NCBI GenBank assembly: GCA_013695765.1 | Contig: JACCZW010000162.1 | Location: 1 to 59,289 of the forward strand | Length of the DNA stretch: 59,289 bases | Source: Gammaproteobacteria bacterium | GTDB taxonomy: Bacteria > Pseudomonadota > Gammaproteobacteria > JACCYU01 | Direction: 5' to 3' | Shown here: in pieces, positions 20,328-38,373 of the stretch | How the letters are laid out: every line of letters begins with the position of its first letter | Numbering within the stretch: the first letter of the stretch is position 1 | Made by a program: the position numbers and the translations under genes | Notes under the pieces: generated by a model | Told to the model about the DNA's origin: nothing | Database searches by the model: none | The model's input: only the letters and a program-made list of their open reading frames with translations

Positions 20328-21417
20328 GCTGCTGATAACGGGCGGCGCGGGTTTTATCGGCGCCAACTTTGTTCAATACTGGCTGGGTGAGTACCCGCAA
20401 GATCGGGTCGTCGTGCTGGATGCGCTGACGTACGCCGGCAATCGCGCGAGCCTCTCCGCGGCGGAAAGCAATCCGCGCTTTCGTTTCGTACACGGCGATA
20501 TCCGTGATCAGGCCATGGTGGAAGGGCTTCTGGAAAAAGAATCCATCGACCTGCTCGTGCATTTCGCGGCCGAATCGCACGTGGATCGGTCCATCCTCGG
20601 GCCGGACGCGTTTATCGACACCAACGTGCTCGGTACGCACAGTCTGCTCAAGGCGGCGAAAAAGGCCTGGCTGGATGCGCCCGATGCGTCCCGACGGGCC
20701 CATCACCGTTTTCATCACTGTTCGACCGATGAGGTGTACGGCACCCTGGCGCCGAACGATCCGCCGTTTCGCGAAACCACGGCGTACGCGCCCAATTCGC
20801 CGTATGCCGCCAGCAAGGCCGCCAGCGATCATCTGGTGCGCGCCTACCATCATACGTATGGGCTGCAGGTCACCACCAGCAACTGCTCCAACAACTACGG
20901 GCCTTATCAGTTTCCCGAAAAACTTATCCCGCTGATGTTGATCAACGCCCTGCAGGGCAAGCCGCTACCCGTTTACGGCGACGGACTCAACGTGCGCGAC
21001 TGGCTTTACGTGGAGGATCATTGCCGCGGCATCGCGCAAGTGCTGGAGCATGGGCGTATGGGCGAGACCTACAACCTCGGCGGCCAGTGCGAAAAAACCA
21101 ATATGGAGGTCGTGCGGATGCTGTGCGCGTTGCTGGATGAGGCAGCACCCTCTAGGGCACCGCATTGCGACTTGATCACGCTCATCAAGGATCGTCCCGG
21201 CCACGATCGGCGCTATGCCATCGACGCCGGCAAGGCCGCGTCCGAATTCGATTATCGACCGGCGGAAAGCTTCGAAAGCGGGCTGCGCAAGACGCTGGCC
21301 TGGTACATGGCGAACGAGACCTGGTGGCAGGCGCTGCTGGATGCGGGCTACAAGGGCTGGATAAAGGCGCAGTACGCGCCCAAGGTCAAGGACGCGGAGG
21401 CCCCGCGCCTGCTGTGA
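20320..21417 (+). CDS. rmlB: dTDP-glucose 4,6-dehydratase
   Basis: Protein of 365 residues (E. coli 361). Extended SDR enzyme and second step of dTDP-rhamnose synthesis. Motifs are TGGAGFIGANFVQY (NAD loop), the HCSTDEVYG segment and catalytic YAASKAAS. The order rmlA-C-D-B differs from the more common rmlBDAC. The overlap with rmlD indicates one transcription unit. Confidence 0.97.
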   Translation: MHKLLITGGAGFIGANFVQYWLGEYPQDRVVVLDALTYAGNRASLSAAESNPRFRFVHGDIRDQAMVEGLLEKESIDLLVHFAAESHVDRSILGPDAFIDTNVLGTHSLLKAAKKAWLDAPDASRRAHHRFHHCSTDEVYGTLAPNDPPFRETTAYAPNSPYAASKAASDHLVRAYHHTYGLQVTTSNCSNNYGPYQFPEKLIPLMLINALQGKPLPVYGDGLNVRDWLYVEDHCRGIAQVLEHGRMGETYNLGGQCEKTNMEVVRMLCALLDEAAPSRAPHCDLITLIKDRPGHDRRYAIDAGKAASEFDYRPAESFESGLRKTLAWYMANETWWQALLDAGYKGWIKAQYAPKVKDAEAPRLL

Positions 21418-21445
21418 AGATCCGTATTCGCATAACTCATCGATA

Positions 21446-22207
21446 ATGCATCACTACGTTGAGCTGGTCTGGTACAAAGCCTGCGCGGATCTGCGCGCCG
21501 AAGCCGCGCGGTTTTATCTGGGCGTGTTGTGGTGGGTGCTGGAGCCGGTGCTTTACATGGCAGTTTTTTATCTGGTGTTCAGTGTGGTGCTGGAAAGGGG
21601 CGGCGAAGGCTTCGTATCGTTCCTGTTGTGCGGCATGATGATCTGGCGCTGGTTCGGTAGTTCGGTCATGCGTTGCGCCAACGCCATTCCGGCGAATGCC
21701 CGGCTGATGTTGCAGGTTTATCTGCCGAAGTATCTGTTCCCCGCCATCGTGCTGGTGACCAACACGCTCAGATTTTTGATCGTGTTCACACTGTTCCTTA
21801 TCTATCTCGTCCTCGTGGAGCAAACGCTGAGCACGACGTGGCTGGCCCTGCCGGTGCTGATGGTGATTCAGTTTCTGCTGATCGCGGCGTGCGCCTCGCT
21901 GCTGGCCGCCGTTGTGCCGTTTATGCCCGATCTTAGAATTCTCGTCGAAAATGGGCTGACTCTGATGCTTTTCATGTCGGGCATCTTCTATGACGTCTCC
22001 GAGTTTCCCGCCGACGTGCGCGCTTATTTCTATCTGAATCCGATGGTCACGGTGATCGAGAGTTACCGCGCGGTGCTGCTTGAGGGCGCCTGGCCGGACT
22101 GGTCAGCGCTGGCCATCGTATTGCTGATCTCGCTGCTTGGTCTTGCCGCGGCTGTTTATCTGCTGACCCGCTTTGACCGGCGCTACGCCAAGCTGGCTAT
22201 CTCGTGA
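21446..22207 (+). CDS. Polysaccharide ABC exporter permease (Wzm/KpsM type)
   Basis: Protein of 253 residues with six hydrophobic segments. It begins with a short amphipathic segment (MHHYVELVWYKACADLRAEA) and then LGVLWWVLEPVLYMAVFYLV, typical of ABC-2 permeases for O-antigen or capsule export. The C-terminal half has FMSGIFYDVSEFPADVRAYF and NPMVTVIESYRAVLL. It pairs with the ATPase that overlaps its end by GTGA. Together they would flip the finished lipid-linked polymer, so this is an ABC-dependent rather than Wzy-dependent locus. Confidence 0.92.
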   Translation: MHHYVELVWYKACADLRAEAARFYLGVLWWVLEPVLYMAVFYLVFSVVLERGGEGFVSFLLCGMMIWRWFGSSVMRCANAIPANARLMLQVYLPKYLFPAIVLVTNTLRFLIVFTLFLIYLVLVEQTLSTTWLALPVLMVIQFLLIAACASLLAAVVPFMPDLRILVENGLTLMLFMSGIFYDVSEFPADVRAYFYLNPMVTVIESYRAVLLEGAWPDWSALAIVLLISLLGLAAAVYLLTRFDRRYAKLAIS

Positions 22208-22965
22208 ACGGCGCTCCCGCCGATCCCAAAACCGTGCTGCGGTTACGAAACGTCGGCGTTTCCTATCAGCGTCGTAGCGGCCTGTTCAGCCACAAACCGT
22301 TCTGGGCGTTGCGCGATATTTCATTCGATCTGCACCGCGGTGAGAGCCTCGGCGTCATCGGCGGCAACGGCGCGGGCAAGAGCACGCTGCTGAAGGTCAT
22401 CACGGGCATCATCGACCCGGACCGCGGGCATGTAGAGCGGGGTGATCTGCACGCGGCGATGCTGTCGTTGCGCATCGGCTTCCTCCCGAATCTTACGGGG
22501 CGTCAGAACGCGATCCTAAGCGGCATGCTGATGGGTATCCGGCGTCGCGAAGTGGTACGCAACATGGACGAGATCATCGCTTTTTCCGGTCTTGAGGATT
22601 TCATCGACCAGCACCTGAACATCTATTCCGCGGGCATGAAGGCGCGGCTGGGTTTCGCGGTGGCGTTTCTTTCCGACCCGGACATTCTGCTTGTGGACGA
22701 GGCGCTGGGCGTGGGAGACGCGGATTTCAAGCGAAAATCGAGCGCACTGCTGCGCGAAAAGATCAAGTCCGACAAGACTGTGGTGATCGTGTCGCATGCG
22801 ACCGCGCAGATCCGCGCGCTGTGCGACCGCGTGGTGTGGATCGAAAAAGGTATCACGAAAATGGTCGGCAGCGTGGACGAGGTGCTGAGTCAATATGGCG
22901 ACGATGAAATGGCGGCGCCGCGCCGGCCACGCGCACGCCGGGCTAGAAAGCGGCGTCCAGCCTGA
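22204..22965 (+). CDS. Polysaccharide ABC exporter ATPase (Wzt/KpsT type, short form)
   Basis: Protein of 253 residues starting at GTG. Walker A GGNGAGKSTLLKVITG, signature YSAGMKARLGFAV and Walker B ILLVDEALGVGDADF are intact. It ends in a basic tail (RRPRARRARKRRPA) and lacks the extra C-terminal carbohydrate-binding domain (about 150-200 residues) found in Wzt proteins that recognise a capped chain. Export is therefore probably not gated by a terminal modification, although a trans-acting domain elsewhere cannot be excluded. Confidence 0.93.
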   Translation: MNGAPADPKTVLRLRNVGVSYQRRSGLFSHKPFWALRDISFDLHRGESLGVIGGNGAGKSTLLKVITGIIDPDRGHVERGDLHAAMLSLRIGFLPNLTGRQNAILSGMLMGIRRREVVRNMDEIIAFSGLEDFIDQHLNIYSAGMKARLGFAVAFLSDPDILLVDEALGVGDADFKRKSSALLREKIKSDKTVVIVSHATAQIRALCDRVVWIEKGITKMVGSVDEVLSQYGDDEMAAPRRPRARRARKRRPA

Positions 22966-22985
22966 CCGCACACGGACGCACACCG

Positions 22986-25900
22986 ATGCAAATCATCGTC
23001 ATCCTGGGCATGCACAGAAGCGGCACCTCCGCCGTGGCGCGGGTGTGCAATCTGCTGGGTGCGGCGGTCGGCGAACAGTTGATGCCGCCCAGCGAAGGCA
23101 ATAACCCCGCCGGCTTCTGGGAACTTGACGAGGTTCGGGTTATTCATGACGAACTGCTGCAGGCGCTTGGGTCGTCCTGGGATGCGACCGCACCGCTGCC
23201 GGCTGATTGGTGGCGGAACGCCGCTGTCTGCGAATTCAAGGATCGCTTGATCCACGTGGTGCGGGAAGAATTTGCGGACGCGGCGCTTGCGTGTCTCAAA
23301 GATCCCAGAATGTGCCGGCTCATGCCGCTGTGGAAAGACATATTCGACGAGATAAAGTGGGAGCCACACTATCTGCTCGCGGTACGTAATCCGCTGGACG
23401 TGGCTGGCTCGTTAAACGCCAGGGATGGGTTGCATCATTGTCAATCCCATCTGCTGTGGTTGCGGCACGTGCTCGAAGCCGAACGATGGACGCGTGGTCA
23501 GCCTCGCGCGTACGTCAGCTATGAAGAGTTGATGGCGGACTGGCGCGCGACGATGACGCCGGCCTGGCGGCAGCTCGGACTGGATGAATTAAGTGTGGAA
23601 CCTTCAGCGGCACGCGAAATCGACGCGTTCCTGCAAACGGACCTGCGGCATCATACGAGCAGCCATGACGATCTGGAAAACGACGAACGCCTTACACTGA
23701 TCCGGCGGGTTTACGACGATTACGCAGCGACGGTAAGTGACGATCAGTCGCAAGGGTCAACGGCTTTGTCCGAACTGGAAAAAACGCTCACCGAAGCGTC
23801 ATTTTTGTTCGAACCAGTCATCGACGACGAACGCAGGCAAAAAACCACACTCGTAACGCAAAAGACCGCACTCGCAACCGAATTGCGCTCGGTCAATCTC
23901 CGCATAAACGCCGCCACCGGGGAGATCAACCAGCTCCGACACGAACTGGCGAACGTCACTCAGCAGTCGACCAGCCGGCTGGCGGAGATCAACCAGCTTA
24001 GGCATGAACTGGCGGACGTCACACAGCAGGCTGCGAGCCGGCTGGCGGAGACTAAGGATCTGCGAAAAGTCATCACGCTGCACGAGAGGAAACTTGCGGA
24101 GCAGGGTGACGCCCTTCAGGAGCAGGCTTCCACGATCACATCGCTGGCCGCTGCGATCACGGCGCTGCAGTCGTCGACAAGCTGGCGCGTAACGGCTCCA
24201 CTGCGAGGCGTCAAAATGGGCGTGCAAAGCGGGGCCGCCGCGTTGCGCGGCCCGCTAGCGAGCAGTCTGCGCTGGCTGTTTGATCGATTGCCGATGACGT
24301 ACAACAACAAGCTGCGTTTGAAGGCGCACGCGCTTGCCTTGAGTCCCAGAGTCGGCAAATTCCTAAAGGGTGCTGCCTCCTCGGCGTCCAACAAAAAGTA
24401 TCTCGATTGGATAAAGACCAACGATACGCTTGACGATGTTGATCGCGCCGCGATCAGACGGCACATCGCGGCGCTTGGGAGAAAGCCGCTGATCTCGGTG
24501 ATTATGCCGGTGTTCAATCCGCCGGAGCGGTTCCTGCGTGGTGCCATACAGTCGGTCCTGGATCAGCTCTACGATCGCTGGGAGCTGTGTATTGCCGACG
24601 ACCGTTCGACCCAACCATACGTTGCTGAAATGCTGCGCGAATACGAGGGCAGGGACGCGCGGATCAAGGCCGTATTTCGCGATCAAAATGGCAATATCTC
24701 CGCTTGCAGCAACAGCGCGATAGCGCTCGCCACGGGTGATTATGTCGCGCTTCTGGATCACGATGACGCTCTGGCTGAACATGCCCTGTACATGATCGCC
24801 GTCGCGATCAACGAGCACCCGAGCGCTAATATCATCTACTCCGATGAAGACAAGATCGACGAACACGATCAGCGCAACACGCCGTATTTCAAGACGGACT
24901 GGAATCCAGACCTGTTCTACGGACAGAACATTATCAACCATCTGGGCGTCTATCGAGCCTCCGTCGTCAGGGAGATCTCCGGCTTCCGCTTAGGCTTCGA
25001 GGGCAGTCAGGACTATGATCTTGCCCTGCGCATAATCGAGCGGACGGCCCCGCGGGATATCGTGCACATTCCCAATATCCTGTACCACTGGAGAATAACT
25101 TCGTCGGCCGTTTCGTTTTCCCAGCGCCATCTGGCGTGGGCGGGTGCGGCGGCCCGCGGTGCAATCAGAGAACATTTTGCCCGGCTTGGCATCGATGCGG
25201 AGGTGGATTCCGCGCCAGACTCCCCTCACTACCAGCGTGTACGGCGGCCCGTCCCACAGCCCGCACCCCTGGTGTCCTTGATCATACCGACCAGGGATAA
25301 AGTCGATCTACTGCAGCAATGCATCGACAGCATCCTGTTCAAGACCGCGTATTCGCCGCTGGAGGTGATCATCGTCGATAATGGGAGCGTTGAGCCGGAA
25401 ACGCATGCCTACCTTACGAGCGTGTCGGCGGACAGCAGAGTTCAAATCATCAAATACGATCAGGTATTCAATTACTCGGCGATAAACAACTTCGCCATAC
25501 GCCAGGCCAGAGGCGACGTTATCGGGCTGATCAACAATGATATTGTTGTCATCAACGAGGATTGGCTGACTGAAATGGTGAGCCACGCCGTGAGACCCGA
25601 AGTCGGCGCCGTGGGCGCGATGTTGTACTACCCGGATGACACCGTTCAACACGCGGGCGTCGTCATGGGAATCGGCGGCGTCGCCGGTCACTCTCACAAA
25701 CACGTTCCGCGCGGGCACCACGGATACTTCGACAGGCTGACTCTCGTTCAGAACGTGAGCGCCGTCACCGGCGCCTGTCTGCTTATGCGGCGCGAAATAA
25801 TGGATCGGTGCCGCGGGCTGGACGAAGAAAACCTCAAGATTGCGTTCAACGACGTCGATTTGTGCCTGCGGATACGCGCGCTGGGCTATCGGATTGTATG

Positions 25901-26189
25901 GACGCCGCACGCGGAGCTTTACCACCTGGAGTCGGCCTCACGCGGCACCGACATGGCGCCGGAAAAGTTTGAGCGGTTCGCGCGAGAAGTACGATGGATG
26001 AAAAATCGCTGGGGGGACGTGTTGCTGGAAGACCCCTACTACAGCCCCAACCTGACGCTTGACAGGGAAGATTTCTCTCTGGCCCGCGAGATGCGCGCGA
26101 GCAAACCCTGGATTGACTTTTTGACGGAGACGATCTCATCCGCCGAAGAGCATCATGCGGCGGCGCTGGAAGGAAAACAAAACGGATGA
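22986..26189 (+). CDS. Sulfotransferase - coiled coil - double GT2 fusion
   Basis: Protein of 1067 residues with four parts. Residues 1-250 form a sulfotransferase-like domain: P-loop IVILGMHRSGTSAVARV and the 3'-phosphate site AVRNPLDVAGSLN. Residues about 265-400 form a coiled coil with a 21-residue repeat. Residues about 500-740 form a GT2 domain starting PLISVIMPVFNPPERF, with LLDHDDA as metal site. Residues about 760-1040 form a second GT2 starting PLVSLIIPTRDKVDLL, with NNDIVV and HAGVVMGIGGVAGHSHKH, as in rhamnosyltransferase-like enzymes. The sulfation role is inference from the PAPS-type P-loop. It overlaps the next gene by ATGA. Confidence 0.85.
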   Translation: MQIIVILGMHRSGTSAVARVCNLLGAAVGEQLMPPSEGNNPAGFWELDEVRVIHDELLQALGSSWDATAPLPADWWRNAAVCEFKDRLIHVVREEFADAALACLKDPRMCRLMPLWKDIFDEIKWEPHYLLAVRNPLDVAGSLNARDGLHHCQSHLLWLRHVLEAERWTRGQPRAYVSYEELMADWRATMTPAWRQLGLDELSVEPSAAREIDAFLQTDLRHHTSSHDDLENDERLTLIRRVYDDYAATVSDDQSQGSTALSELEKTLTEASFLFEPVIDDERRQKTTLVTQKTALATELRSVNLRINAATGEINQLRHELANVTQQSTSRLAEINQLRHELADVTQQAASRLAETKDLRKVITLHERKLAEQGDALQEQASTITSLAAAITALQSSTSWRVTAPLRGVKMGVQSGAAALRGPLASSLRWLFDRLPMTYNNKLRLKAHALALSPRVGKFLKGAASSASNKKYLDWIKTNDTLDDVDRAAIRRHIAALGRKPLISVIMPVFNPPERFLRGAIQSVLDQLYDRWELCIADDRSTQPYVAEMLREYEGRDARIKAVFRDQNGNISACSNSAIALATGDYVALLDHDDALAEHALYMIAVAINEHPSANIIYSDEDKIDEHDQRNTPYFKTDWNPDLFYGQNIINHLGVYRASVVREISGFRLGFEGSQDYDLALRIIERTAPRDIVHIPNILYHWRITSSAVSFSQRHLAWAGAAARGAIREHFARLGIDAEVDSAPDSPHYQRVRRPVPQPAPLVSLIIPTRDKVDLLQQCIDSILFKTAYSPLEVIIVDNGSVEPETHAYLTSVSADSRVQIIKYDQVFNYSAINNFAIRQARGDVIGLINNDIVVINEDWLTEMVSHAVRPEVGAVGAMLYYPDDTVQHAGVVMGIGGVAGHSHKHVPRGHHGYFDRLTLVQNVSAVTGACLLMRREIMDRCRGLDEENLKIAFNDVDLCLRIRALGYRIVWTPHAELYHLESASRGTDMAPEKFERFAREVRWMKNRWGDVLLEDPYYSPNLTLDREDFSLAREMRASKPWIDFLTETISSAEEHHAAALEGKQNG
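23922..24062 (+). repeat. 63-base in-frame tandem repeat encoding coiled coil
   Basis: About 2.2 copies of a 63-base unit start at 23922, 23985 and 24048 inside the fusion gene. Each encodes 21 residues (EINQLRHELA, then VTQQ and SRLA), exactly three heptads. The copies differ at several bases, so the duplication is not brand new, but slippage could change the rod length by three heptads at a time. Confidence 0.8.
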
Positions 26190-27004
26190 ATATTCTGGTT
26201 ATCGGCAAGGGCAAGACCGGCACCACGATTATCTCGAAATCGATCCAGCTCTCCATGCCGGATTCGATTTATTATCTGGAACCAAAGAAGATCGGTCTTT
26301 TCATGAGGCCGGCGCAGCCCGCCCAGGCGTGCGTGGTGAAGATCATCTACGAGCACTGGGATGCGACCCCGAACCTGCGCGAAGCCATTATGCATAACGA
26401 ACTGCCGCTCAAGTTCAAGCGTATCGTGGCGATCGTGCGCGATTTGCGTGATGAGGCGATCAGTCGACTTTTTTACATCGCGCTCCCGCTGGCGCAACGG
26501 GGTGTGGAACCCCGGCTTATGGATGCGTGGCTGGATGTGCTGAAAGAAAAGGAGCGGGATCCGCATGTCATCTCTTTTCTGGGCATGATCGAGAAACTGA
26601 ACGACATCTTTGGAACGAAGGTGGCGCCACGTCCGCCTGTGGATCTGCGTTACCTGCGATTTCTCGACAAGCATGCGCAAAGGATCTACGTCATCAAGTA
26701 TGAGGATTTTATCGAGGACCGGCTCGATAATCTGGAATCGTATCTGGGTTTCGAGGTGTCGGATGATCGCCATGTAGGCGAATATCACTGGACGCGTCGA
26801 ACCGCTGCCTATAATAACTGGAAGCGGTTTTTTACGCCGGGCGACATCGAACAATTGCGTGATCTTTACGATCCGCTGCTCATCCGGCACGGCTACACGG
26901 ACTGGGCGCTGGACCCTGACCCGGTGCTGAAACCGGACGAATGTTCCGGCTATGTGCGGCGCATCGTCGCTGGCGTGCACGCCGCCGCCGCGGCGCCCGG
27001 ATAG
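26186..27004 (+). CDS. Sulfotransferase-like protein
   Basis: Protein of 272 residues. The N-terminal P-loop ILVIGKGKTGTTIISKSI and the later IVAIVRDLRDEAISRLFY (3'-phosphate site) give the two PAPS-contact motifs of cytosolic-type sulfotransferases. YVIKYEDFIED matches the downstream family motif. No signal peptide, so it acts in the cytoplasm on nucleotide- or lipid-linked sugars. It is coupled by ATGA to the large fusion. The acceptor is unknown, and some proteins of this fold in polysaccharide clusters are unproven as sulfotransferases. Confidence 0.75.
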   Translation: MNILVIGKGKTGTTIISKSIQLSMPDSIYYLEPKKIGLFMRPAQPAQACVVKIIYEHWDATPNLREAIMHNELPLKFKRIVAIVRDLRDEAISRLFYIALPLAQRGVEPRLMDAWLDVLKEKERDPHVISFLGMIEKLNDIFGTKVAPRPPVDLRYLRFLDKHAQRIYVIKYEDFIEDRLDNLESYLGFEVSDDRHVGEYHWTRRTAAYNNWKRFFTPGDIEQLRDLYDPLLIRHGYTDWALDPDPVLKPDECSGYVRRIVAGVHAAAAAPG

Positions 27005-27073
27005 ACGCTGCGCCGCGATTCTTAAGGACATTAATCGCATGATTTTGCTTTTCGATTCGACTGGAGGCTAAAA

Positions 27074-27880
27074 GTGTGGAACAGGATTCGCCAGCGTCTG
27101 TTCGCGGGTAATATCGCGCGGACTGATCAACAGACCACCGACACGACGCCCCGGGCCAGCTTGTCGCAGGGTGACGCGGCCCGTGACGACGATGCGCGGG
27201 CAGACGCGATCGCGCGCGAATTTGAACAGCGCAAGCCGTGGGTTACGCGCTTCTGGATAGACGGCGTGGCTTATGGCGGCGCTTTTGATGCCATGAACGA
27301 TGTGCGTCTGGAGCAGTTTCGCGCGCGATTCCCCGAGGTCAAAACCATTCTTGAACTCGGCGCACTGGAAGGCGGCCATAGTTTCGGGCTGGCCGCGGCC
27401 CCGCGGGTCACGCGTATCGTGGGTCTGGAGGGGCGGGCGTCCAATATCGAGCGCGCGCGTCTGGTTCAAAAGCTGCTTGGCGTCGGCAAGGTTGAGTTTC
27501 ACGAGGTCAATCTCGAGCAAACGGACCTGGCCGACTGGGGCCGGTTCGACGCGGTTTTCTGCTCCGGCCTTTTGTATCACCTGCCCGAGCCGTGGAAGCT
27601 CCTGGACCTGTGCGCAAAGGTCAGCCCCGGATTTTTTATGTGGACGCATTACGCCGCCGGTGACGGCAATGTGGAGGTCAACGGCTATCGCGGCAAGTGG
27701 TACCGGGAAAGCGGTCTCGGCGATCCATTGAGCGGCATGTCGCAGGAATCCTTCTGGCCAACTTTGCCGGCACTGAAACGTATGCTGCGGCAGAGCGGAT
27801 ACAACGAGGTTCATATCATTCACGACGACGCGAACCACCCGCACGGCCCGGCCGTGACGCTGGCGGCAACGGCCGTTTAA
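27074..27880 (+). CDS. SAM-dependent methyltransferase (class I)
   Basis: Protein of 268 residues from GTG (MWNRIRQRLFAGN). A Rossmann SAM site is visible at ILELGALEGGHSFGLA (motif I), VGLEGRASNIERAR (acidic loop) and FDAVFCSGLLYHLPEPW (motif IV). The C-terminal part MSQESFWPTLPALKRML resembles sugar or lipid methyltransferases in O-antigen loci. It is probably an O-methyltransferase acting on the polysaccharide. It lies between sulfotransferase genes, 69 bases after the previous gene. Confidence 0.8.
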   Translation: MWNRIRQRLFAGNIARTDQQTTDTTPRASLSQGDAARDDDARADAIAREFEQRKPWVTRFWIDGVAYGGAFDAMNDVRLEQFRARFPEVKTILELGALEGGHSFGLAAAPRVTRIVGLEGRASNIERARLVQKLLGVGKVEFHEVNLEQTDLADWGRFDAVFCSGLLYHLPEPWKLLDLCAKVSPGFFMWTHYAAGDGNVEVNGYRGKWYRESGLGDPLSGMSQESFWPTLPALKRMLRQSGYNEVHIIHDDANHPHGPAVTLAATAV

Positions 27881-27965
27881 ACGATTACGATCGGGTTACA
27901 TCGCAAACGGCCTGAAAAGAGCCCGACGGATCGAGTTTCGGCCACGTGCGTTGCAGAGGTAATAC

Positions 27966-28754
27966 ATGGATCTTCAAGCCCTTATTGTCGCGGCGCGTCC
28001 GCGCCCCATCGTCGATTCGCGGAACAAGCTATTGTTGGTCTGGAGTGCGAAGTCCGGCTGCACATTCGCCGTCAAATGGCTGTTTACGCAAATGGGTGTG
28101 CCGGAGGCCTGCGCAAGGCCGCATAAGTATCGTGCCGAGCTGTATAAGAGTGAGCAGCAAAAGGCTGCGGTAACGGATTTCGCCAAAGCGCCAGGCTCGT
28201 ATCGCACCGTCAAATTCATCCGGGATCCCTTCAAGCGCGCTGTGAGCTCTTACATACACGCCGCCCGCATTGGCTACGACGATGCCGCGATCAGCACGTT
28301 CCTCGGGCGCGAGGTGGATGCGACCAGCCGCTTTTCCTTTAGAGAGTTTCTGCGCTATCTCGAAAGCATCGATCTGACACGTTGCAATATTCATCATCAA
28401 TCGCAGGCGCACGCGCTGGAACGCCGATACATGCTGGCGTCGATGTTTCTGGTCAACCTGGACCATTCCATGCAAACGCTGCCTGAGCTCGAGTCGTACC
28501 TGGGGCTGGAGCAAAGCGATCCGCGGCGGTTCAGAGAATCGGCGCACCACACCCGCAGGCCGCAAGATGCGGACGGTGGTTTTAACGGCGACAAGGTTTT
28601 CGACATTTACAATGTAGCCGTCGCCGAGATGCCTGAATATCACAGCTTCTATGACGCGGAATTAACAGACAGCGTTGCCAGTTTGTATGCGGAAGATTTC
28701 GTGCGCTACGGCTTCAGTCCGTCGCTGGACGACGGGCGTCGTAATCAAGCATGA
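27966..28754 (+). CDS. Sulfotransferase paralogue 1 (Sulfotransfer_2-like)
   Basis: Protein of 262 residues. It shares its architecture with the two genes that follow: PRPIVDSRNKLLLVWSAKSG, then CTFAVKW (PAPS P-loop region), KFIRDPFKRAVSSYIHA (3'-phosphate site), FREFLRYLESIDL and a C-terminal FYDAEL...LYAEDFVRYGF. Most diverged of the three. Cytoplasmic, no signal peptide. It ends in an ATGA overlap with paralogue 2. A unique polysaccharide acceptor for each paralogue is inference. Confidence 0.82.
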   Translation: MDLQALIVAARPRPIVDSRNKLLLVWSAKSGCTFAVKWLFTQMGVPEACARPHKYRAELYKSEQQKAAVTDFAKAPGSYRTVKFIRDPFKRAVSSYIHAARIGYDDAAISTFLGREVDATSRFSFREFLRYLESIDLTRCNIHHQSQAHALERRYMLASMFLVNLDHSMQTLPELESYLGLEQSDPRRFRESAHHTRRPQDADGGFNGDKVFDIYNVAVAEMPEYHSFYDAELTDSVASLYAEDFVRYGFSPSLDDGRRNQA

Positions 28755-29566
28755 GCTTTCGCATGCGATTCGATTTTAAGCGATCCCCGCTTCACAAGTT
28801 GATAGTGGCGCCGCCGGAGCCGATCGTGGATTCTCGACACAAGGTCGTGCTTCTCTGGAGCGCCAAGGCGGGCTGTACATTCGCCGTAAAATGGATGCTC
28901 GGTCACATGGGGCTGCTACAGGAGGCGCTGGCGCATCATCGCTGGATTCATAATTACCGCGCCCATAAGCTTTACAAAAGCGCCGCGCATAAGGCGTCAA
29001 TTCAGGACTTCGTCGACGAGCCCGCCGCTTACCGCGCTGTCAAGATCGTCAGGAATCCATTCAAGCGCGCCTTGAGTTCTTATATCCATGCTTCACAGTG
29101 TGGTTACGAAGACGTACATATGGCGAGGTTTCTTAAGCGAGCCGTCGATGCGGACAACCGGTATTCGTTCCGGGAATTTGTTGCCTATCTGGAAACGATC
29201 GACTTGAATGCGTGCAACGTTCACCATCGCTTGCAGACGCATCGCCTGGAGCGGGCTTTCGCGCCGGGAACGCGTTTTGTGATCGACCTCGACCACTCCA
29301 TGATATTGCTGCCCGGACTCGAACGTCTGCTCCGCTTACGGCGATCGAATTTGAGCCGCTACCGGAAATCGCACCATCACACACAGCCGTCCAAGCGTAT
29401 CGCCACCGAGTTCAGCGCAGATTCGCTATTGCGCGTAACGCTGGAGTCCAAGCGGGATCTGCCTGGCTACCGTCACTTCTACGACGCGGACCTCGAGCGC
29501 CGCGTTTATGATTTGTATGCGGAAGATTTTCTGCTCTACGGTTTCTCCACGACTCTCGGCGGTTAA
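28751..29566 (+). CDS. Sulfotransferase paralogue 2
   Basis: Protein of 271 residues, closely related to the next gene. Both carry LLWSAKAGCTFAVKWML, HMGLLQEALAHH and FREFVAYLETIDL. The 3'-phosphate motif is IVRNPFKRALSSYIHA. The start overlaps paralogue 1 by four bases, and three bases separate it from paralogue 3, so all three are co-translated. Tandem duplication is the simplest origin. Confidence 0.82.
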   Translation: MSFRMRFDFKRSPLHKLIVAPPEPIVDSRHKVVLLWSAKAGCTFAVKWMLGHMGLLQEALAHHRWIHNYRAHKLYKSAAHKASIQDFVDEPAAYRAVKIVRNPFKRALSSYIHASQCGYEDVHMARFLKRAVDADNRYSFREFVAYLETIDLNACNVHHRLQTHRLERAFAPGTRFVIDLDHSMILLPGLERLLRLRRSNLSRYRKSHHHTQPSKRIATEFSADSLLRVTLESKRDLPGYRHFYDADLERRVYDLYAEDFLLYGFSTTLGG

Positions 29567-29569
29567 ACG

Positions 29570-30439
29570 ATGATTGATCGAACGCCTCCGCGATTAGATC
29601 GAGATAGCGGGGAGAAGCAGAGAATCATTCGCTGCCTCGCGACGCGCCCTCGACCGATACTCGATTCGCAACACCAGCTGATGCTTCTCTGGAGCGCCAA
29701 GGCGGGTTGTACATTCGCGGTCAAGTGGATGCTCGATCATATGGGGCTTTTGCAGGAGGCGCTGGCGCACCATAAGTGGGTACATAATTTTCGTGTCGCA
29801 AAGCTTTACGCGGGACTTGCTCACAAAGCATCCGTGCGCGACTTTCTCAATTCGTTCGAGGGATACCGGGTAATTAAAATTGCCCGGAACCCACATAAGC
29901 GGGCCGTCAGCTCTTACATTCACGCCGCTTGTTGCGGTTACGAGGACGCCAGAGTATCCGATTTTTTAGGTCGGCCCGTCGGAAAACACAGCGGGTTTTC
30001 CTTCAGGGAATTCGTTGCATATCTCGAAACCATCGACCTAGGCAACTGCAACGTTCATCATCGCATGCAGGTGCATCCGCTCGAGCGTTATTTTGTGCCG
30101 GGCTCCCGTTTCATAATCGATCTGGATCAATCCATGGCTTTGCTCCCGAAGCTGGAATACCTGCTCGGCTTGCCGCGGACCGATCCAGCAGATTACCGCG
30201 AATCATCCCACCATACGCGTACATCGTCGTATGCCAACGAGAAGTTCAGCGGCGATACGGTATATGATTTCGCGGACAAAAAAAGCGCGGTGATTCCAGG
30301 TTATCGCGCGTTTTATGACGCGGAGCTCGAAGAGCGGGTCGGGGCACTCTACGCGGAGGATTTTTATCGATACGCCTTCCCGACCTCTCTAAAGGAGCAC
30401 CTCGCGCGCGAAGACGCGTATGCACAACCGGGCTTATAG
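29570..30439 (+). CDS. Sulfotransferase paralogue 3
   Basis: Protein of 289 residues. It shares LLWSAKAGCTFAVKWML and HMGLLQEALAHH with paralogue 2, and the 3'-phosphate motif IARNPHKRAVSSYIHA, in which His replaces the Phe of the other two. It has a longer N-terminus (MIDRTPPRLDRDSGEKQR) and C-terminus than its siblings. It lies three bases before the methyltransferase-GT2 fusion gene. Divergence at the acceptor side between shared motifs suggests different acceptors or positions. Confidence 0.82.
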   Translation: MIDRTPPRLDRDSGEKQRIIRCLATRPRPILDSQHQLMLLWSAKAGCTFAVKWMLDHMGLLQEALAHHKWVHNFRVAKLYAGLAHKASVRDFLNSFEGYRVIKIARNPHKRAVSSYIHAACCGYEDARVSDFLGRPVGKHSGFSFREFVAYLETIDLGNCNVHHRMQVHPLERYFVPGSRFIIDLDQSMALLPKLEYLLGLPRTDPADYRESSHHTRTSSYANEKFSGDTVYDFADKKSAVIPGYRAFYDAELEERVGALYAEDFYRYAFPTSLKEHLAREDAYAQPGL

Positions 30440-30442
30440 CGC

Positions 30443-32467
30443 GTGACGCGAAAAGACAAAGTCTTTCATTATCTGGACAAGGAGGGTTTGGGACTTGAGA
30501 TCGGTCCCAGCATTAACCCGATCGCGCCCAAGAAAGAAGGCTACAGGGTTCATATCATCGACCACATGAGCAGAGAAGGGCTGGTCGAAAAGTACAAGGA
30601 TCACGAAGTCAACTTAAAAAAAATCGAGGATGTAGATTTCGTCTGGAATGGACAACCTTACGCGGAGCTGACCGGCAAGAGTAAGTTTTACGACTGGATC
30701 ATCGCCTCGCATGTTGTCGAGCACACGCCGGATCTCGTCGGTTTTCTAAATGATTGCGAGAGCTTGCTCAAGGACGACGGTATCTTTTCTCTGGCCGTGC
30801 CTGACAAGCGGTTTTGTTTCGATCGCTTCCGACCCATTACCGGTATCGCGCGCGTCATCGACAGCCATGTCCAGAAAAACGTGATACATACGCCGGGGGT
30901 CGCCGCCGAGTATTTTCTGAACGTCGTTTCCAAAGGGGGGCGTATCGCGTGGGATCAGCACCATCGGGCGGACTACAAGTTTGTGCACACGGTCGACCAC
31001 GCCCGCGCCGCGATCGATCAGATTCGTGCCAATGGCGTGTATTACGATGTCCACGCTTGGTGCTTTACCCCCCATTCTTTTCGTTTGCTCATGCATGACC
31101 TGCATTCTCTGGGCCTGACGTCCCTCAAGGAAGTCGGTTTCTTTGAGACAGCAGGCTGCGAGTTTTTCATAAGTCTGAGTCGGTCCGGAGAGGGCGTTAA
31201 ACTCGACCGGCTACAGTTACTGGAGAAGATCGAAGACGATCTGGCATGGGAGCGGCCGCGTAACGATCAGGTTCCGGAGCATCAGGCTCCTGAGCCTCTA
31301 ACCGTGGCTTGCGCGCCTCAAGGGCAACCAGTTCGTGAGGCGAGCCGCCCAGTTGGTGAGTTCCCGTTTGCGCTGAAGGCGCGCGGGGAAGATGTCCGCG
31401 TCGCTGCAAGATCGCACCGCGATACACAGTGGGCAGCCATGCTATGCAGTGACCGCGAGCGAGCTGAAGGTCATGATAAGCAGCGCTCGCGTTACTTGTG
31501 CCCGCCCGAGCCATCGCGGATGAGCGTGAAATCATCGGGGATTCAATCGACAGAGAAAAGCACTCAGGTATGCGCCGTAATGGTGGCGTATTTCCCGAAC
31601 ACGAGCATGCTCAGAGCAGCGCTGCAAGCGCTCTACGCGCAGGTTCAGGCCGTGCTGATCGTGGACAACACGCCGGGTCGGCACGACGTGTGTGAGGCAA
31701 TTGCCGGTTTGACCGTCACCGTGCTGGCCCCGGGGCGTAACCGGGGCGTGGCGGGTGGCCAGAACGTGGGTGCGAGATGGGCGCGAGCGCGGGGGTTTAC
31801 CCATGTTCTTCTGATGGATCAGGACAGTGTGGTGGCGCCCGACCTGGTGACGCGGTTGCTCGCGGCGGAGATTTCTCTTAACGCCGAAGGGAAAGCGGTG
31901 GCCGCTGTGGCGCCGAGGTTTTTGAATGTAAGACGGCTGCAGGCAGCGCCACACGCTGTGGCTCAGGGCTGGTGTGCGAGTGAAGTCGTCGAGACCGGGG
32001 CGGGCGGAAAATGCCAGCAACTCGACTATGTCATATCCTCGGGCAGTCTCATCGAGCTGAAAAAGCTCGAGATCGTTGGCGAAATGGAGGAGGCATTATT
32101 CATCGATTACGTGGACATCGAGTGGGGCTTGCGAGCCCGAGCGAAGGGATACCATTGTTACGGTGTGTACGAGGCCCACATCGAGCATTGCCTGGGCGAT
32201 ACCGACGTGGCGGTGCCGTGGATGAAAAAGCGCCGGGTCATCGTACATAGTCCGCTTCGACACTACTATTATTTTCGGAATGCCATACACCTCTACAAGC
32301 GGTCCTATGCGTCATGGGCCTGGACGCTCAATGATGCTTCTCGCCTGGTCCTGAAATACGTCTTCTACTCGACCATAACGGCGCCCCGCCGGCAGCACCT
32401 ACGCATGATGACGCTGGGTATCTGGCACGGTTTGCGAGGCCGGCTCGGTCCTTGTACAGAGCAATGA
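30443..32467 (+). CDS. Methyltransferase - GT2 glycosyltransferase fusion
   Basis: Protein of 674 residues from GTG. The N-terminal part (about 1-265) is a class I methyltransferase: LGLEIGPSINPIAP (motif I), DWIIASHVVEHTPDLVGFL and LLKDDGIFSLAVPDKRF. The C-terminal part (about 372-660) is a GT2 rhamnosyltransferase-like domain: VCAVMVAYFPNTSMLRAALQ, NRGVAGGQNVGARWA and the metal site LLMDQDSVV. The linker of about 100 residues between them looks unstructured and unlike either family. An internal ATG at 31520 could start a separate GT2. Fusion by read-through of a former intergenic stretch is possible. Confidence 0.8.
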   Translation: MTRKDKVFHYLDKEGLGLEIGPSINPIAPKKEGYRVHIIDHMSREGLVEKYKDHEVNLKKIEDVDFVWNGQPYAELTGKSKFYDWIIASHVVEHTPDLVGFLNDCESLLKDDGIFSLAVPDKRFCFDRFRPITGIARVIDSHVQKNVIHTPGVAAEYFLNVVSKGGRIAWDQHHRADYKFVHTVDHARAAIDQIRANGVYYDVHAWCFTPHSFRLLMHDLHSLGLTSLKEVGFFETAGCEFFISLSRSGEGVKLDRLQLLEKIEDDLAWERPRNDQVPEHQAPEPLTVACAPQGQPVREASRPVGEFPFALKARGEDVRVAARSHRDTQWAAMLCSDRERAEGHDKQRSRYLCPPEPSRMSVKSSGIQSTEKSTQVCAVMVAYFPNTSMLRAALQALYAQVQAVLIVDNTPGRHDVCEAIAGLTVTVLAPGRNRGVAGGQNVGARWARARGFTHVLLMDQDSVVAPDLVTRLLAAEISLNAEGKAVAAVAPRFLNVRRLQAAPHAVAQGWCASEVVETGAGGKCQQLDYVISSGSLIELKKLEIVGEMEEALFIDYVDIEWGLRARAKGYHCYGVYEAHIEHCLGDTDVAVPWMKKRRVIVHSPLRHYYYFRNAIHLYKRSYASWAWTLNDASRLVLKYVFYSTITAPRRQHLRMMTLGIWHGLRGRLGPCTEQ

Positions 32468-32585
32468 ACCAGGCGATGCGGCTATCATTCTCGCTGGACC
32501 TGGCTAACGGTTGCCCCGATGCTGGATGGCGCGGGTGACCTTGCGCGCATCTTCATGTAAATGGCGCCACCTGCTCAAGTATCCC

Positions 32586-33316
32586 GTGTCCAAAAAAATA
32601 TTCATCATCGGCACGGGGCGATCCGGCACCCACTGGGTTGCTCGCACGCTTGCCGAACACAGGGAGATTCGCGCCACGATAGAGGTTAAATCGGCGTTTG
32701 ACTGGGTGACCCGGATGGCGCTGGATCCAGCGACTCGCAAGCGGCTGTTTCCGCGCCTGGTGCGTTACTATCGGTATCAGCATTTTATATCGGTGCCTTG
32801 CCACTACATGGACAAGAGTCACCCGAACATCTGGCTGGCAGACCAACTGGCTGAAACCTTCAGTGATGCCGTTTTTATCGGCATGCAGAGAAATCCCTAT
32901 GCCACGGTAGCCAGCATGCTGATCGGGGGGTGCTGACGTGGCAGGAGCGATGGCGCGAATTACCAATACCCAATGCGTTTTTGGGCATTACCGAAGACCA
33001 ACTGCCCTATTACGACCGGCTGGCTGTTGCCCGGAAGTGCGCCATGAGATGGAAGGCGCATAACAGACAACTCCTGCATTTGGCGGATGCGCTGAAAGAC
33101 AGGCTGCTTGTCATACAGTATGAAGAACTGGCCGCACAGACGCAGAACGTGCTGGCGAACCTGGAACGTTTTCTGGATTTATCGTGCCCGATAACGATGC
33201 CGGAGATCAAAACGACCTCCATCGGTAAATGGCGTGAGCAATTAAGTCACGTGGAAATCGAGCAGATTAGCGCCGGTCTGAACGACTCACCGCACCGTCC
33301 GCAAACCGAGGCGTAG
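32586..33316 (+). pseudogene. Sulfotransferase gene split by a frameshift at a G6 tract
   Basis: The first frame (GTG at 32586, or an upstream start at 32511) encodes the P-loop IFIIGTGRSGTHWVARTLAE and the 3'-phosphate motif IGMQRNPYATVASMLIGG, then stops at 32936. The remainder (LTWQERWRELPIPN, LLVIQYEELAAQTQNVL to 33316) is in the next frame. The shift lies at six G (32925-32930); seven G would restore one protein of about 243 residues. It could be a pseudogene, a phase-variable gene or a base-calling error. Confidence 0.75.
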
Positions 33317-33351: not shown

Positions 33352-35076
33352 TCAAGCGATGTCGACGGTCTTTCTCGTGACCGCGCTCAGTTTGCCAGTT
33401 TGATCGTAGTCGACATCCAGGAATTCTTCGAACTCAAGCAGTTCGCTGGCGTCCTGTCGTATGGCCTCTTGATTCCACCAATGTGAGATGCTCGGCGCCG
33501 AACTTTGCCGATACACGTCCAGCACATCCTCTACGTTATACCAGTCGAGATGGCGCGCCTGGAAAGGGCGATAGACGCGGGCGCCCTTTTTTAAGCGGCA
33601 CAATCGTTCCCCTGCGCGGTGTAAGGCAAAAGTGGTATCTATCGTCGCGAGCTGGTACGCGATTTGGCCGCGACTCGTGGCGATCCATTGCGGCTGCTTG
33701 TGCCAGAATTGCGCTACGTGCCGGTTTATCGCTCTGTTGCGCAGCAGATACTGTCTGGGAATGTCTGAAATTTTGATCATGGGTCCGACACATTGAATCT
33801 TTGGCAGACGATTAAGCAGTTCATCATATATCGTTAAGACGGTTACACCTCGCGGCAACTCGATGTCACAATCCGATACGGCGTATCTGCCTGGCTCCGA
33901 CCAGTTCTCAAAAAACTTCTGAACCGTCACGTCGACACTGTTAAGGTCGTCTGGATTCTGAATTTTCCGCCCTTTGCGAACTATCAATCCTGAGCGACCA
34001 AATTCTTCCAGGGTTTCCAGGGTCTCCTCATCGTCGCTGCCATTATCGTGGATGATGATATCCACGGGCCGGTCCGCGTTTACGTATGAATCTATGCTTT
34101 TCCGAAGGCAGTTTGATCGGTTGAAAGATATGACGAAGACGGGCAGCGGGGATGCCCTGCATGTGTTGTAAGCCTTACGGTCGCGGGTATGCGTGATCCC
34201 GATTTGACCGCCATCCACGATTTGGCGCAGAGCGCTGGTCATGTCCGCCGAAGAGATGCTCATATCGTGCAGCGCCGCGTCTTTTCCGGCCTGGATGAGA
34301 TCGCGCGGTGATCGCGCCTGTACTGGCGTTTTCTGGGGTGAACGGGCGGTCGAGAACCAGTCGTGGAACTTGAAGCCTTTGCCAACGACGCTTCCGGATA
34401 GCGCTGTCCAGATATTCGGTATCCCGTAGGATTCCGCGATCACGAGGCCGTGCAGTGCGGAGCTAACGATCGCTTTACATGAGACGACTTGAGAGATGAA
34501 ATCCGCTTCTTGGCAGGTAACATCAATGACCCTCACATCTTCGTGCTGACGCAGAGCACACACATAAGGATGATTCCAGTCCACGTAATGCGGGATCAAG
34601 CCCAAAGAATAGCGGCGGACGGCAGGCACTGGCCGCGGCACTACCGTCGAGATAAAGAACCCTGGATCGCCAAGCGGAACGTCGCCTACCGGGATGCCGG
34701 CTGCCCTTAGCGCTGTCACAGACAGCTTTCCGCGAAGCGCCCTCACATACTCCCGTCGAGGACTTCCAACACCGATGTCCGGGTGCATGACGCCGGTGCC
34801 CCAGATGCGCGACTGCGCATTCGACCCAGCCATGAGGCTTCCGGCCGCAAGCAAGTGGGGTCTGGTGCGATCGCCTGTCCATACAGTCGGCCGCCTCGAC
34901 ATCGCGCCGACGATGGTAGGGTTGATTCGATCGCCGATGTTGTTAACGCGCAGAAAATAAAACAACGCGAGCGACTCATCAGGCCGGCCCAACATCGCGC
35001 GGGCTGACCAATGACCGAAGCGTGCTATCAGCCGCTGCAAGAAGGTGTCCCATAAGCTGGTGCGTCTGGAAATCAT
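33352..35076 (-). CDS. Polysaccharide pyruvyltransferase - GT2 fusion
   Basis: Protein of 574 residues from the ATG at 35076 (MISRRTSLWDTFLQRL); the frame is open for 50 more codons upstream without better support. Residues about 40-300 match the pyruvyltransferase family (PF04230): LRVNNIGDRINPTIVG, the RIWGTGVMHPD loop, LGLIPHYVDWNHP and CKAIVSSALHGLVIAESYGI with its conserved His. From about 312 a GT2-like domain follows: PVFVISFNRSNCLRKSIDSY, HDNGSDDEE and SDCDIE. It is the only gene of the locus on the minus strand. It would add pyruvate ketal and a sugar; both acceptors are unknown. Confidence 0.8.
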   Translation of the reverse strand: MISRRTSLWDTFLQRLIARFGHWSARAMLGRPDESLALFYFLRVNNIGDRINPTIVGAMSRRPTVWTGDRTRPHLLAAGSLMAGSNAQSRIWGTGVMHPDIGVGSPRREYVRALRGKLSVTALRAAGIPVGDVPLGDPGFFISTVVPRPVPAVRRYSLGLIPHYVDWNHPYVCALRQHEDVRVIDVTCQEADFISQVVSCKAIVSSALHGLVIAESYGIPNIWTALSGSVVGKGFKFHDWFSTARSPQKTPVQARSPRDLIQAGKDAALHDMSISSADMTSALRQIVDGGQIGITHTRDRKAYNTCRASPLPVFVISFNRSNCLRKSIDSYVNADRPVDIIIHDNGSDDEETLETLEEFGRSGLIVRKGRKIQNPDDLNSVDVTVQKFFENWSEPGRYAVSDCDIELPRGVTVLTIYDELLNRLPKIQCVGPMIKISDIPRQYLLRNRAINRHVAQFWHKQPQWIATSRGQIAYQLATIDTTFALHRAGERLCRLKKGARVYRPFQARHLDWYNVEDVLDVYRQSSAPSISHWWNQEAIRQDASELLEFEEFLDVDYDQTGKLSAVTRKTVDIA

Positions 35077-35425
35077 AAACGCAAGGTTCTGGATGCGACT
35101 AGTCGAGGAGGTTATTTGGTGTTTGCAAGGCAAGACAACGATAAATTGTAATCCAAAAAAGAGAATGGCCATCGGCTTCGAGCCGTTAATTTGCCTGGCG
35201 AAGAGCGGCTCAAGCAGCTGTAACACGCTGATGGTAAACTGTTTGATATATCGCAGCCGTGGAAAAAGCGCTTGTGGAAAGTAAGCGTTTCGTGATCGCC
35301 GGCGCTTCCGAGCCGATAATAATGAACTTGAATCCAGCGCCCATTCGGGTCAGCGACAAGCGGTCAGGCGAGGATTCCCTTCGCGATCTGGCGCGCGCGC
35401 ATCCGGCCCGCCCCGTAATCCACCT
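35077..35425. other. Divergent intergenic region, no gene recognised
   Basis: About 350 bases between the minus-strand pyruvyltransferase gene and the plus-strand GT2 gene. The part near 35101-35160 is AT-rich and should hold the promoter of the minus-strand gene, but I see no convincing -35/-10 pair. Small open frames here (for example 35259-35456 plus) have no family features. Confidence 0.4.
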
Positions 35426-36256
35426 ATGTGTCCAGCAGTGCTATCCATCTCACTAGTTACTTTCAGGCCGGACTTCGAATTACTTACCCTTGCCGTGGAT
35501 CGTCTGCGCGCCGCGGTTGTCAAGCTGGGCGCGATTGAGGCGAGCGTCGTGCGGCTGGTGGCTGTGGATAACGATCCGGGCGGCGGCCGCGGGAACTGCC
35601 TGCAAGCGTTGCTGAAAGAGCATTGGCAAGGCGACGGCCGCGAGTTTGCTATCCTGAGCGGTCACGGAAATATCGGCTATGGTCAAGGCCACAACAAGGC
35701 CATCGAACAATCGTCGGCGGATTATCATTTGATCCTGAACCCCGATGTGCTGGTGGCCGAGGATGCGCTGTGCAATGCTCTCGAATTCATGGCGGGTAAT
35801 CCCGATGTGGGGTTGCTGGCGCCGGCGTTCGTCGATGAGGATGGGAGTTTGCGGCATTTGTGCAAGGCGTATCCCACGGTCATCGATCTGGCCTTGCGCG
35901 GGTTTGCACCAGATGCAGTCAAACGCATCGCACAGCGCCAACTCGCGCGCTACGAAATGAACGCGATCGATCCGCATGCGGTTTGTCGTGGCGTACCGCT
36001 TATCAGCGGCAGTTTCATGTTTTTCCGGCGGAGCGTGCTGGCGCGGACGGGCGGATTTTCGAAGCACTATTTTCTATATTTCGAAGACTTTGATCTGTCG
36101 CTGCGGACGGCGAAGTTCACCACCATCGCCTACGTACCCAGCGTGCGGATCGTGCACAAGGGCGGCTACGCAAGCCGCAAAGGGATCAGGCACTGGTGGA
36201 TGTTCGGCCGTTCGGCTTGCACGTTTTTCTCGCGGCACGGCTGGAAATTGATCTGA
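35426..36256 (+). CDS. GT2 glycosyltransferase (rhamnosyltransferase-like)
   Basis: Protein of 276 residues. It begins LSISLVTFRPDFELLTLAVD, with VAVDNDPGGGRGN as nucleotide-binding strand, NIGYGQGHNKAIEQSSADYH and the metal site LILNPDVLV. The C-terminal LISGSFMFFRRSVLARTGGF and HKGGYASRKGIRHW are typical of WbbL-like transferases that use dTDP-rhamnose. The rml genes nearby fit that donor, but the donor is inferred. It lies 28 bases before the wbpV-like gene. Confidence 0.88.
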   Translation: MCPAVLSISLVTFRPDFELLTLAVDRLRAAVVKLGAIEASVVRLVAVDNDPGGGRGNCLQALLKEHWQGDGREFAILSGHGNIGYGQGHNKAIEQSSADYHLILNPDVLVAEDALCNALEFMAGNPDVGLLAPAFVDEDGSLRHLCKAYPTVIDLALRGFAPDAVKRIAQRQLARYEMNAIDPHAVCRGVPLISGSFMFFRRSVLARTGGFSKHYFLYFEDFDLSLRTAKFTTIAYVPSVRIVHKGGYASRKGIRHWWMFGRSACTFFSRHGWKLI

Positions 36257-36284
36257 GCCGGGTTGCGCGTCATCCGTTCCCGCG

Positions 36285-37241: not shown

Positions 37242-37302
37242 CGTATAGGAGTCGCTCGGCGGCAGTATTCGGGCATTGTTTATTAAATGAAGCGTATAGA
37301 AG

Positions 37303-38322: not shown

Positions 38323-38373
38323 GGATGCAATCTTGAAATGACTGACTCTTGTAGTGGGAGCATAGTGCCTTAA

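Follow-up and report, generated by a model that had tools for sequence, protein, structure and literature searches.

Why should about 10 kb of bacterial DNA carry six sulfotransferase-like domains? The question is raised by contig JACCZW010000162.1 of the gammaproteobacterial assembly GCA_013695765.1, whose whole 59,289 nucleotides are referred to here as the window. A first-pass annotation had placed six such domains between positions 22986 and 33316, beside rml genes, an ABC exporter and glycosyltransferases of family GT2. All of them were located again; three exceeded the Pfam cut-offs, and the rest were recognised by homologues, motifs or fold. Judged from its genes, the region is probably a surface-polysaccharide locus of the ABC-transporter-dependent type, and its product is most likely the O-antigen of lipopolysaccharide (LPS), which would be multiply sulfated, methylated and rhamnose-containing. 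In what follows, ST stands for a protein or gene resembling sulfotransferases that use 3′-phosphoadenosine 5′-phosphosulfate (PAPS), and G001 is a sister genome of the same genus.

The set consists of a tandem Sulfotransfer_2 triplet (ST2a, ST2b and ST2c), a SULT-like gene, an ST fused to two GT2 domains and a split Sulfotransfer_3 gene. The home genome (G000; 3.13 Mb, 164 contigs, 99% complete, with the window as contig C162) was found by family searches to hold about 14 more ST genes outside the locus, mostly single and mostly among housekeeping genes. Kinship labels and two gene orders (miaB-phoH-ybeY-lnt and leuS-lptE) suggest by themselves that the genome is gammaproteobacterial. For six STs in 10.3 kb, at about 20 per 3.13-Mb genome, the Poisson probability is about 1e-10, or about 7e-7 when the triplet is counted as one. 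The clustering of these genes far exceeds chance.

Profile searches against the Sulfotransfer_1, 2 and 3 families, as proposed in the first-pass annotation, gave a divided result. With the curated Pfam cut-offs (27 bits for PF13469, 22 bits for PF00685 and 22 bits for PF03567), the domains at 27966, 28751 and 32586 qualified, those at 22986 and 26186 fell short, and 29570 was unmatched; an unrelated P-loop family was preferred for none of the six. The remaining three are assigned as STs with the help of their orthologues, one distant homologue, conserved motifs and, for 29570, a fold match. The ST-GT2-GT2 protein (22986..26189, plus strand) has an N-terminal ST-like domain (about residues 1–260), a coiled region and two GT2 domains (PF00535, 153 bits). 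Its N-terminus scored 20.9 bits with PF13469 (E = 4.8e-4), and the corresponding scores were 22.6 in G001 and 25.7 in L065; a homologue in L064 reached 29.2 bits with PF00685, above the cut-off. The domain carries the P-loop GMHRSGTS and the 3′-phosphate-binding motif VRNPLDVAGS. This type of domain occurred in 34 of 321 evenly sampled genomes of the class, mostly inside long multidomain frames. For the SULT-like (Sulfotransfer_1-related) sulfotransferase (26186..27004, plus strand), the PF00685 score was 15.8 bits; its G001 orthologue scored 20.6, and a homologue in G206 (30% identical, in an ST-rich locus) scored 26.5, over the cut-off. When four sequences were aligned, the P-loop lysine, VRDxRDxxxS and the C-terminal R..W..F...D motif, which is typical of SULT enzymes, were seen to be kept. 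An AlphaFold model of this protein made from the single sequence had a pLDDT of 34 and was not used. In a sequence search of solved structures, neither 26186 nor the 22986 domain gave a meaningful match and query A1 gave none; query A2 weakly matched 3rnl, a bacterial sulfotransferase (E = 0.003), and more weakly a heparan sulfate 3-OST.

The three paralogues of the triplet, all on the plus strand, are 51–57% identical among themselves. ST2a (27966..28754) scored 34.3 bits with PF03567 and shows the motifs WSAKSGCT and RDPFKRAVSSY; ST2b (28751..29566) scored 43.7 bits with the same profile. ST2c (29570..30439) is placed with them by its identity to its two neighbours ST2a and ST2b (52% and 57%), by its two orthologues in G001 (23.4 and 31.5 bits with PF03567, both above 22), and by its fold. 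The AlphaFold model of ST2c had a pLDDT of 84 and a pTM of 0.83, and nearly all its top matches in the PDB were sulfotransferases, the best being mouse SULT7A1 (E = 4.9e-3, probability 0.97); heparan-sulfate 3-O-sulfotransferases and other sulfotransferases with bound PAP were retrieved as well. In an alignment of 10 ST2 homologues, the columns of WSAKxGCT (the PAPS 5′-phosphosulfate loop) and P-x-x-R-x-x-S (3′-phosphate-binding) were invariant or nearly so. The claim of the first-pass annotation that the proteins of the locus resemble PAPS sulfotransferases is supported.

The sixth domain belongs to a Sulfotransfer_3 gene (32586..33316, plus strand; PF13469, 49–50 bits, over the cut-off), which the assembly gives in a broken state. 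Its frame is split near 32929, at a run of six G; the open reading frames (ORFs) run from 32511 to 32936 and from 32930 to 33316, and the two halves of the match (model positions 2–142 and 147–213) lie in different frames. Hence, while six domains are present, five of the six STs look intact. Two other apparent frameshifts were seen in the 59-kb contig. One lies in the ORF at 30443, where a 674-residue methyltransferase-GT2 “fusion” was rejected as an artefact of the frameshift, the two parts being separate genes in G001. The other affects a di-haem cytochrome c peroxidase/MauG gene on the minus strand (55068–56956; the shift lies near 56240), with model positions 2–43 and 43–148 in neighbouring ORFs. 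Since this last gene is unrelated to the locus, decay is no likelier an explanation than indels introduced during assembly. Some ST genes may nevertheless have been truly lost, for in G001 the reading frame of ST2b breaks at a different point in each of two contigs, and only 48 C-terminal residues of the Sulfotransfer_3 gene were matched there.

The surroundings are those of a surface polysaccharide, as the first-pass annotation had described, with rmlACDB for L-rhamnose, an ABC exporter and two methyltransferase genes. From 17999 to 32467, thirteen ORFs share one strand, separated by −58 to +85 bp, in the order rmlA, rmlC, rmlD, rmlB, wzm, wzt, ST-GT2-GT2, SULT-like gene, methyltransferase, ST2a-b-c and the methyltransferase/GT2 ORF, and the Sulfotransfer_3 gene comes next. 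ST2a, ST2b, ST2c and the gene that follows are joined by 4-bp overlaps or 3-bp gaps. The rml genes, all on the plus strand, were assigned by NCBIfam equivalog cut-offs, each of which was exceeded: rmlA, for dTDP-glucose synthesis (17999..18880; TIGR01207, 476 bits), rmlC (18877..19434; TIGR01221, 252 bits), rmlD (19377..20327; TIGR01214, 348 bits) and rmlB (20320..21417; TIGR01181, 481 bits). They are followed on the same strand by a wzm-like ABC-2 membrane subunit (21446..22207; PF01061, 39 bits) and a wzt-like ABC ATPase of the short form (22204..22965; 253 residues; PF00005, 84 bits), a pair that fits an ABC-transporter-dependent O-antigen locus. PF14524 (Wzt_C) was not matched in this ATPase; the C-terminal carbohydrate-binding domain of Wzt is optional, and only some members of the ABC O-antigen family carry one.

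The order of the locus is kept in the sister genome. When the ST2 triplet was searched as a profile in 143 genomes, G001 and the distant genome G017 were the only ones to match apart from the home genome itself. Contig C38 of G001 repeats the order of the window (uvrA, ssb, rmlACDB, wzm, wzt, ST-GT2-GT2, SULT-like gene, methyltransferase, ST2a-b-c, methyltransferase, GT2), so that the proposed search of related genomes for the same gene set was answered from rml through the triplet. Between the window and G001, dN/dS was 0.15–0.27 for the ST genes and 0.05–0.24 for other genes of the locus (rml, wzm and wzt); within the triplet it was 0.18–0.27 for ST2a, the N-part of ST2b and ST2c, and 0.40 for the short C-part of the broken ST2b. 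These ratios indicate that the ST genes of the locus are under purifying selection. In a tree the triplet formed one clade, and ST2a, ST2b and ST2c each grouped across the two genomes; the triplication is therefore older than the split of the two species.

How might such a locus work? From the enzyme families we infer that a WecA/WbpL-like enzyme (37303) would put an N-acetylhexosamine (HexNAc)-1-phosphate on undecaprenyl phosphate, the sugar coming from the WbpM-like and epimerase genes. GT2 enzymes (22986, 31520 and 35426) would then elongate an L-rhamnose-containing chain from the dTDP-L-Rha supplied by rmlACDB, whose residues the methyltransferases, two in number, and as many as five intact STs would modify in the cytoplasm. 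The sulfate donor would be PAPS, made with an adenosine 5′-phosphosulfate (APS) kinase; such a kinase was found on another contig of the genome (233 bits), and CysD/CysH-type proteins are also present. Most likely each of the three ST2 paralogues sulfates a position or residue of its own within one repeat, and the GT2-fused ST may sulfate the residue added by its partner. Wzm/Wzt would export the chain, and an O-antigen-ligase-like protein would attach it to the lipid A core. It may be noted that the home genome has a second polysaccharide-type region (L034; G000:C85:68000–85571), in which an APS kinase lies beside an MraY/WecA-like protein, with one clear and one weak Sulfotransfer_3 gene 7–12 kb away.

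Is the product an O-antigen at all? The polymer might instead be a sulfated capsule or exopolysaccharide (EPS), the ABC exporter pairing with an outer-membrane exporter encoded elsewhere, which we hold to be rather unlikely. Short Wzt/KpsT-like ATPases are known from both O-antigen and capsule pathways; an outer-membrane polysaccharide-export (OPX/Poly_export) protein is encoded elsewhere in the home genome, which means that capsule or EPS export exists in the cell, and the relatives with proven structures in Vibrio and Cobetia are capsules. Yet KpsC/KpsS (PF05159) were not found in the 99%-complete home genome, and no kpsD/E- or OPX-like gene was recognised among the locus genes scanned. Moreover, an O-antigen-ligase family protein (PF04932, 69–72 bits) is encoded in an LPS-core cluster with hldE, hldD and waaF, where HldE, HldD and heptosyltransferase II exceeded their equivalog cut-offs, and the HexNAc-1-P transferase that would initiate the chain (37303) lies in the same island, as fits an ABC-transporter-dependent O-antigen locus. 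Because the ligase-like gene stands with LPS-core genes and KpsC/KpsS are absent, an ABC-exported O-antigen is favoured over a Kps-type capsule, which we regard as disfavoured. Several other points count against the O-antigen proposal as a whole, besides the OPX protein. The PAPS genes lie outside the cluster, whereas Vibrio and Cobetia have them inside; of the STs in the window, 22986 and 26186 score below the Pfam cut-offs and 29570 has no Pfam match; in the fold search with the ST2c model no match reached an E-value of 0.001, and TM-scores were low (0.2–0.45). Synteny with G001 stops after the rhamnosyltransferase-like GT2, and the G001 contig ends, so that the link to 33352–41455 comes from the home genome only. 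Some STs, finally, may be dispensable, since ST2b is frameshifted in both G001 copies.

The last point leads to the question whether gene number overstates sulfation. The three ST2 genes might be largely redundant or decaying duplicates, giving a polymer with one or two sulfates; we think this possible, on the unlikely side, and it is compatible with an O-antigen, being opposed only to the step of multiple sulfation. Apart from the two broken ST2b copies, the broken Sulfotransfer_3 gene and its short remnant match in G001, it can call on Synechocystis, where deletion of one of two STs (xssE) left bloom formation and EPS accumulation substantially unaltered (PMC8205485). The low dN/dS of the triplet genes, the PAPS-loop and 3′-phosphate motifs kept in all paralogues and the age of the triplication argue the other way, and with three apparent frameshifts in 59 kb, the one in the MauG gene among them, indels made in assembly are as good an explanation as decay. 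A further view, that the STs act on lipids, small molecules or proteins and stand in the locus incidentally, seems to us improbable. The substrate of an ST is not readable from its sequence, and the approximately 14 lone STs among housekeeping genes imply that STs with other targets probably exist in this genome. The six considered here, however, stand in an operon-like run with glycosyltransferase, methyltransferase and exporter genes that is kept in the sister species; one is fused to GT2 domains, its ST domain recurring in long multidomain frames of the class; and an ST2 relative adjoins rml genes in another gammaproteobacterium (L005). Multiple sulfation of a rhamnose-containing O-antigen thus remains our preferred account.

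If it is right, this would be a gammaproteobacterial O-antigen-type pathway with more STs per operon-like run than the described clusters compared here; three sister ST2 enzymes could show how regioselectivity evolves in polysaccharide sulfation, and the locus would offer new enzymes for making sulfated rhamnose polymers.

The G001 bin contains two versions of the locus, on contigs C77 and C38 (L021 and L022). In C77 the GT2 part is divergent (61%), and the SULT-like, methyltransferase and ST2 genes are as in C38; this version is either a second locus or belongs to a second strain in the bin. ST2a occurs as two alleles with 66–70% amino acid identity, within an otherwise well conserved stretch: compared with the window, the C38 allele is 70% identical at the amino acid level (dS about 1) and the C77 allele 87% identical. 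At its 3′ end, the C77 ST2c has 90% nucleotide identity to ST2b, against about 57% to the orthologous ST2c. The allele divergence and the ST2b-like end point to recombination among alleles and copies. Both are consistent with the triplet being a diversification cassette, in which strains would come to differ in how their surface polysaccharide is sulfated, as tandem copies recombine and alleles are swapped, and hence in their recognition by phages or predators, but we consider this quite doubtful.

The first-pass annotation had called the locus the best candidate for an undescribed system. In the strong sense this does not hold, as sulfated rhamnose polymers from loci with rml, ABC and ST genes have been described (PMC11641403, PMC11766843). 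Sulfated L-rhamnose polymers have been chemically proven in Vibrio sp. KMM 8419 and Cobetia marina KMM 1449, whose clusters contain rml genes, an ABC exporter and STs. The Vibrio cluster resembles ours in its dTDP-rhamnose genes, ABC export, several (three) STs, one of them near the rhamnose operon, and WecA-type initiation; its authors showed the sulfated polymer chemically and propose a sulfated O-antigen too. It differs in its size (about 80 genes), in having cysNDC within the cluster, in being a group 3 capsule cluster and in its three STs being spread over regions, and the accessible portion of that report does not mention a tandem ST2 triplet (PMC11641403). The Cobetia cluster shares rml, the ABC exporter, an ST adjoining rml and a rhamnosyltransferase, and a pyruvyltransferase in the modification region, and the determined structure contains L-Rha 2-sulfate (PMC11766843). 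It has kpsETMD, kpsSC, PAPS genes within the cluster and a wcb operon, whereas the home genome lacks KpsC/S and has its PAPS genes elsewhere. In the xss cluster for synechan of Synechocystis, two STs of distinct subfamilies likewise stand among glycosyltransferase genes, and sulfate has been shown at about 2 per 8 sugars (PMC8205485); that cluster, however, is Wzx/Wzy-dependent, has only those two STs and is plasmid-borne. The ST genes of cyanobacteria (PF00685, PF03567 and PF13469) are mostly found in putative polysaccharide clusters, ABC-type ones included (PMC8205485). Sulfotransferase genes have also been reported for Gammaproteobacteria of Shark Bay mats (PMC9723792) and for a GAG-like cluster in Pontiella (PMC7356697). 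Hence the kind of locus is already known from marine bacteria and cyanobacteria, and ours would work like the described sulfated-polysaccharide clusters. What is new is the ST2 triplet with its signs of recombination, and the number of STs in an O-antigen-type setting; ours also differs from the described clusters in that this setting is without kpsSC and in the position of the PAPS genes outside the cluster.

The nearest relatives of the ST2 genes found in named genomes are cyanobacterial, with 36–43% identity (Xenococcaceae 43%, Trichodesmium 36%), followed by a gammaproteobacterium (32%) and then by Planctomycetes; it is possible that the ST2 genes were acquired by transfer. The cyanobacterial relatives adjoin another ST and glycosyltransferase genes: in Xenococcaceae a Sulfotransfer_3 domain precedes the ST2 domain in one fused protein, encoded downstream of a TPR-GT2-GT2-type protein, and in Trichodesmium the relative is preceded by another ST. 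In the gammaproteobacterium (L005), the homologue comes directly after rmlB-rmlD-rmlA-rmlC. A relative of ST2c, 29% identical over 85% of the query, was also found in a 595-kb uncultured phage record (LR756511.1, 121825–122484), and an annotated Sulfotransfer_2 relative, 26% identical, occurs on plasmids of about 140 kb of the Gram-positive Priestia megaterium (NZ_CP085418.1 and two more).

It had also been supposed that bacterial surface-polymer loci usually carry no ST or one. In the class survey 181 of the 321 genomes had PF13469 and 77 had PF03567, and 4–5 STs above the cut-off were seen within about 13 kb of other polysaccharide-type loci. The supposed “none or one” thus fails as a rule for the class, and the idea that the present locus is unique in density was rejected. 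In L043 (G090:C4), about 13 kb encodes GT4 and GT2 enzymes together with five STs that exceed the cut-off; L041 (G266:C41) has at least four such STs and L044 (G236:C14) at least three. Like the present locus, all three combine glycosyltransferases with a group of STs drawn from several Pfam families (3–5 above the cut-off within about 13 kb). They differ in their GT4 enzymes; wzm/wzt, rml and the ST2 triplet were not matched in the stretch read. With six STs in an operon-like run, three of them a tandem triplet, the present locus stands at the upper end among the loci surveyed. The recurrence of ST-dense polysaccharide loci in the class suggests that sulfated bacterial surface polymers are commoner than the few characterised cases would indicate. 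In another locus, L053 (G089:C117, 1282–8152), wzm and a wzt with a sub-threshold Wzt_C match are accompanied by a sulfatase-family membrane protein and three ST-like proteins, two of which exceed the cut-off.

The remaining genes of the island, which is bounded by ssb (16689) and miaB (42073), are on the plus strand unless stated. The first methyltransferase, a class I S-adenosylmethionine (SAM) enzyme (27074..27880; PF08241, 36.5 bits), is 92% identical in G001. The second SAM methyltransferase gene (30443..31300, the end being approximate as it is lost in the frameshift; PF13489, 26.8 bits) is a separate gene of 305 residues in G001, and the rhamnosyltransferase-like GT2 after it (31520..32467, start approximate) is there a separate ORF of 324 residues; its TIGR01556 score, 196.5 bits, is just below the cut-off of 200.55. 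Beyond the Sulfotransfer_3 gene lie, in order, a polysaccharide pyruvyltransferase-like and GT2-like protein on the minus strand (33352..35226; PF04230, 26.0 bits, cut-off 25.3), a GT2 (35426..36256; PF00535, 25.6 bits), an NAD-dependent sugar epimerase/dehydratase (36285..37241; PF01370, 122 bits), the initiating WecA/WbpL-like polyprenyl-phosphate sugar-1-phosphate transferase (37303..38322; PF00953, 118 bits), a WbpM/FlaA1-like UDP-HexNAc 4,6-dehydratase (38374..40311; PF02719, 405 bits) and a galE-like UDP-sugar 4-epimerase (40472..41455; TIGR01179, 442 bits, over the cut-off). Between ssb and rmlA, an overlapping pair of genes on the plus strand (17183–17903) encodes a HEPN protein (PF05168, 90 bits) and an MNT-type nucleotidyltransferase (PF01909); it is also present in G001 and looks like a HEPN/MNT toxin-antitoxin module.

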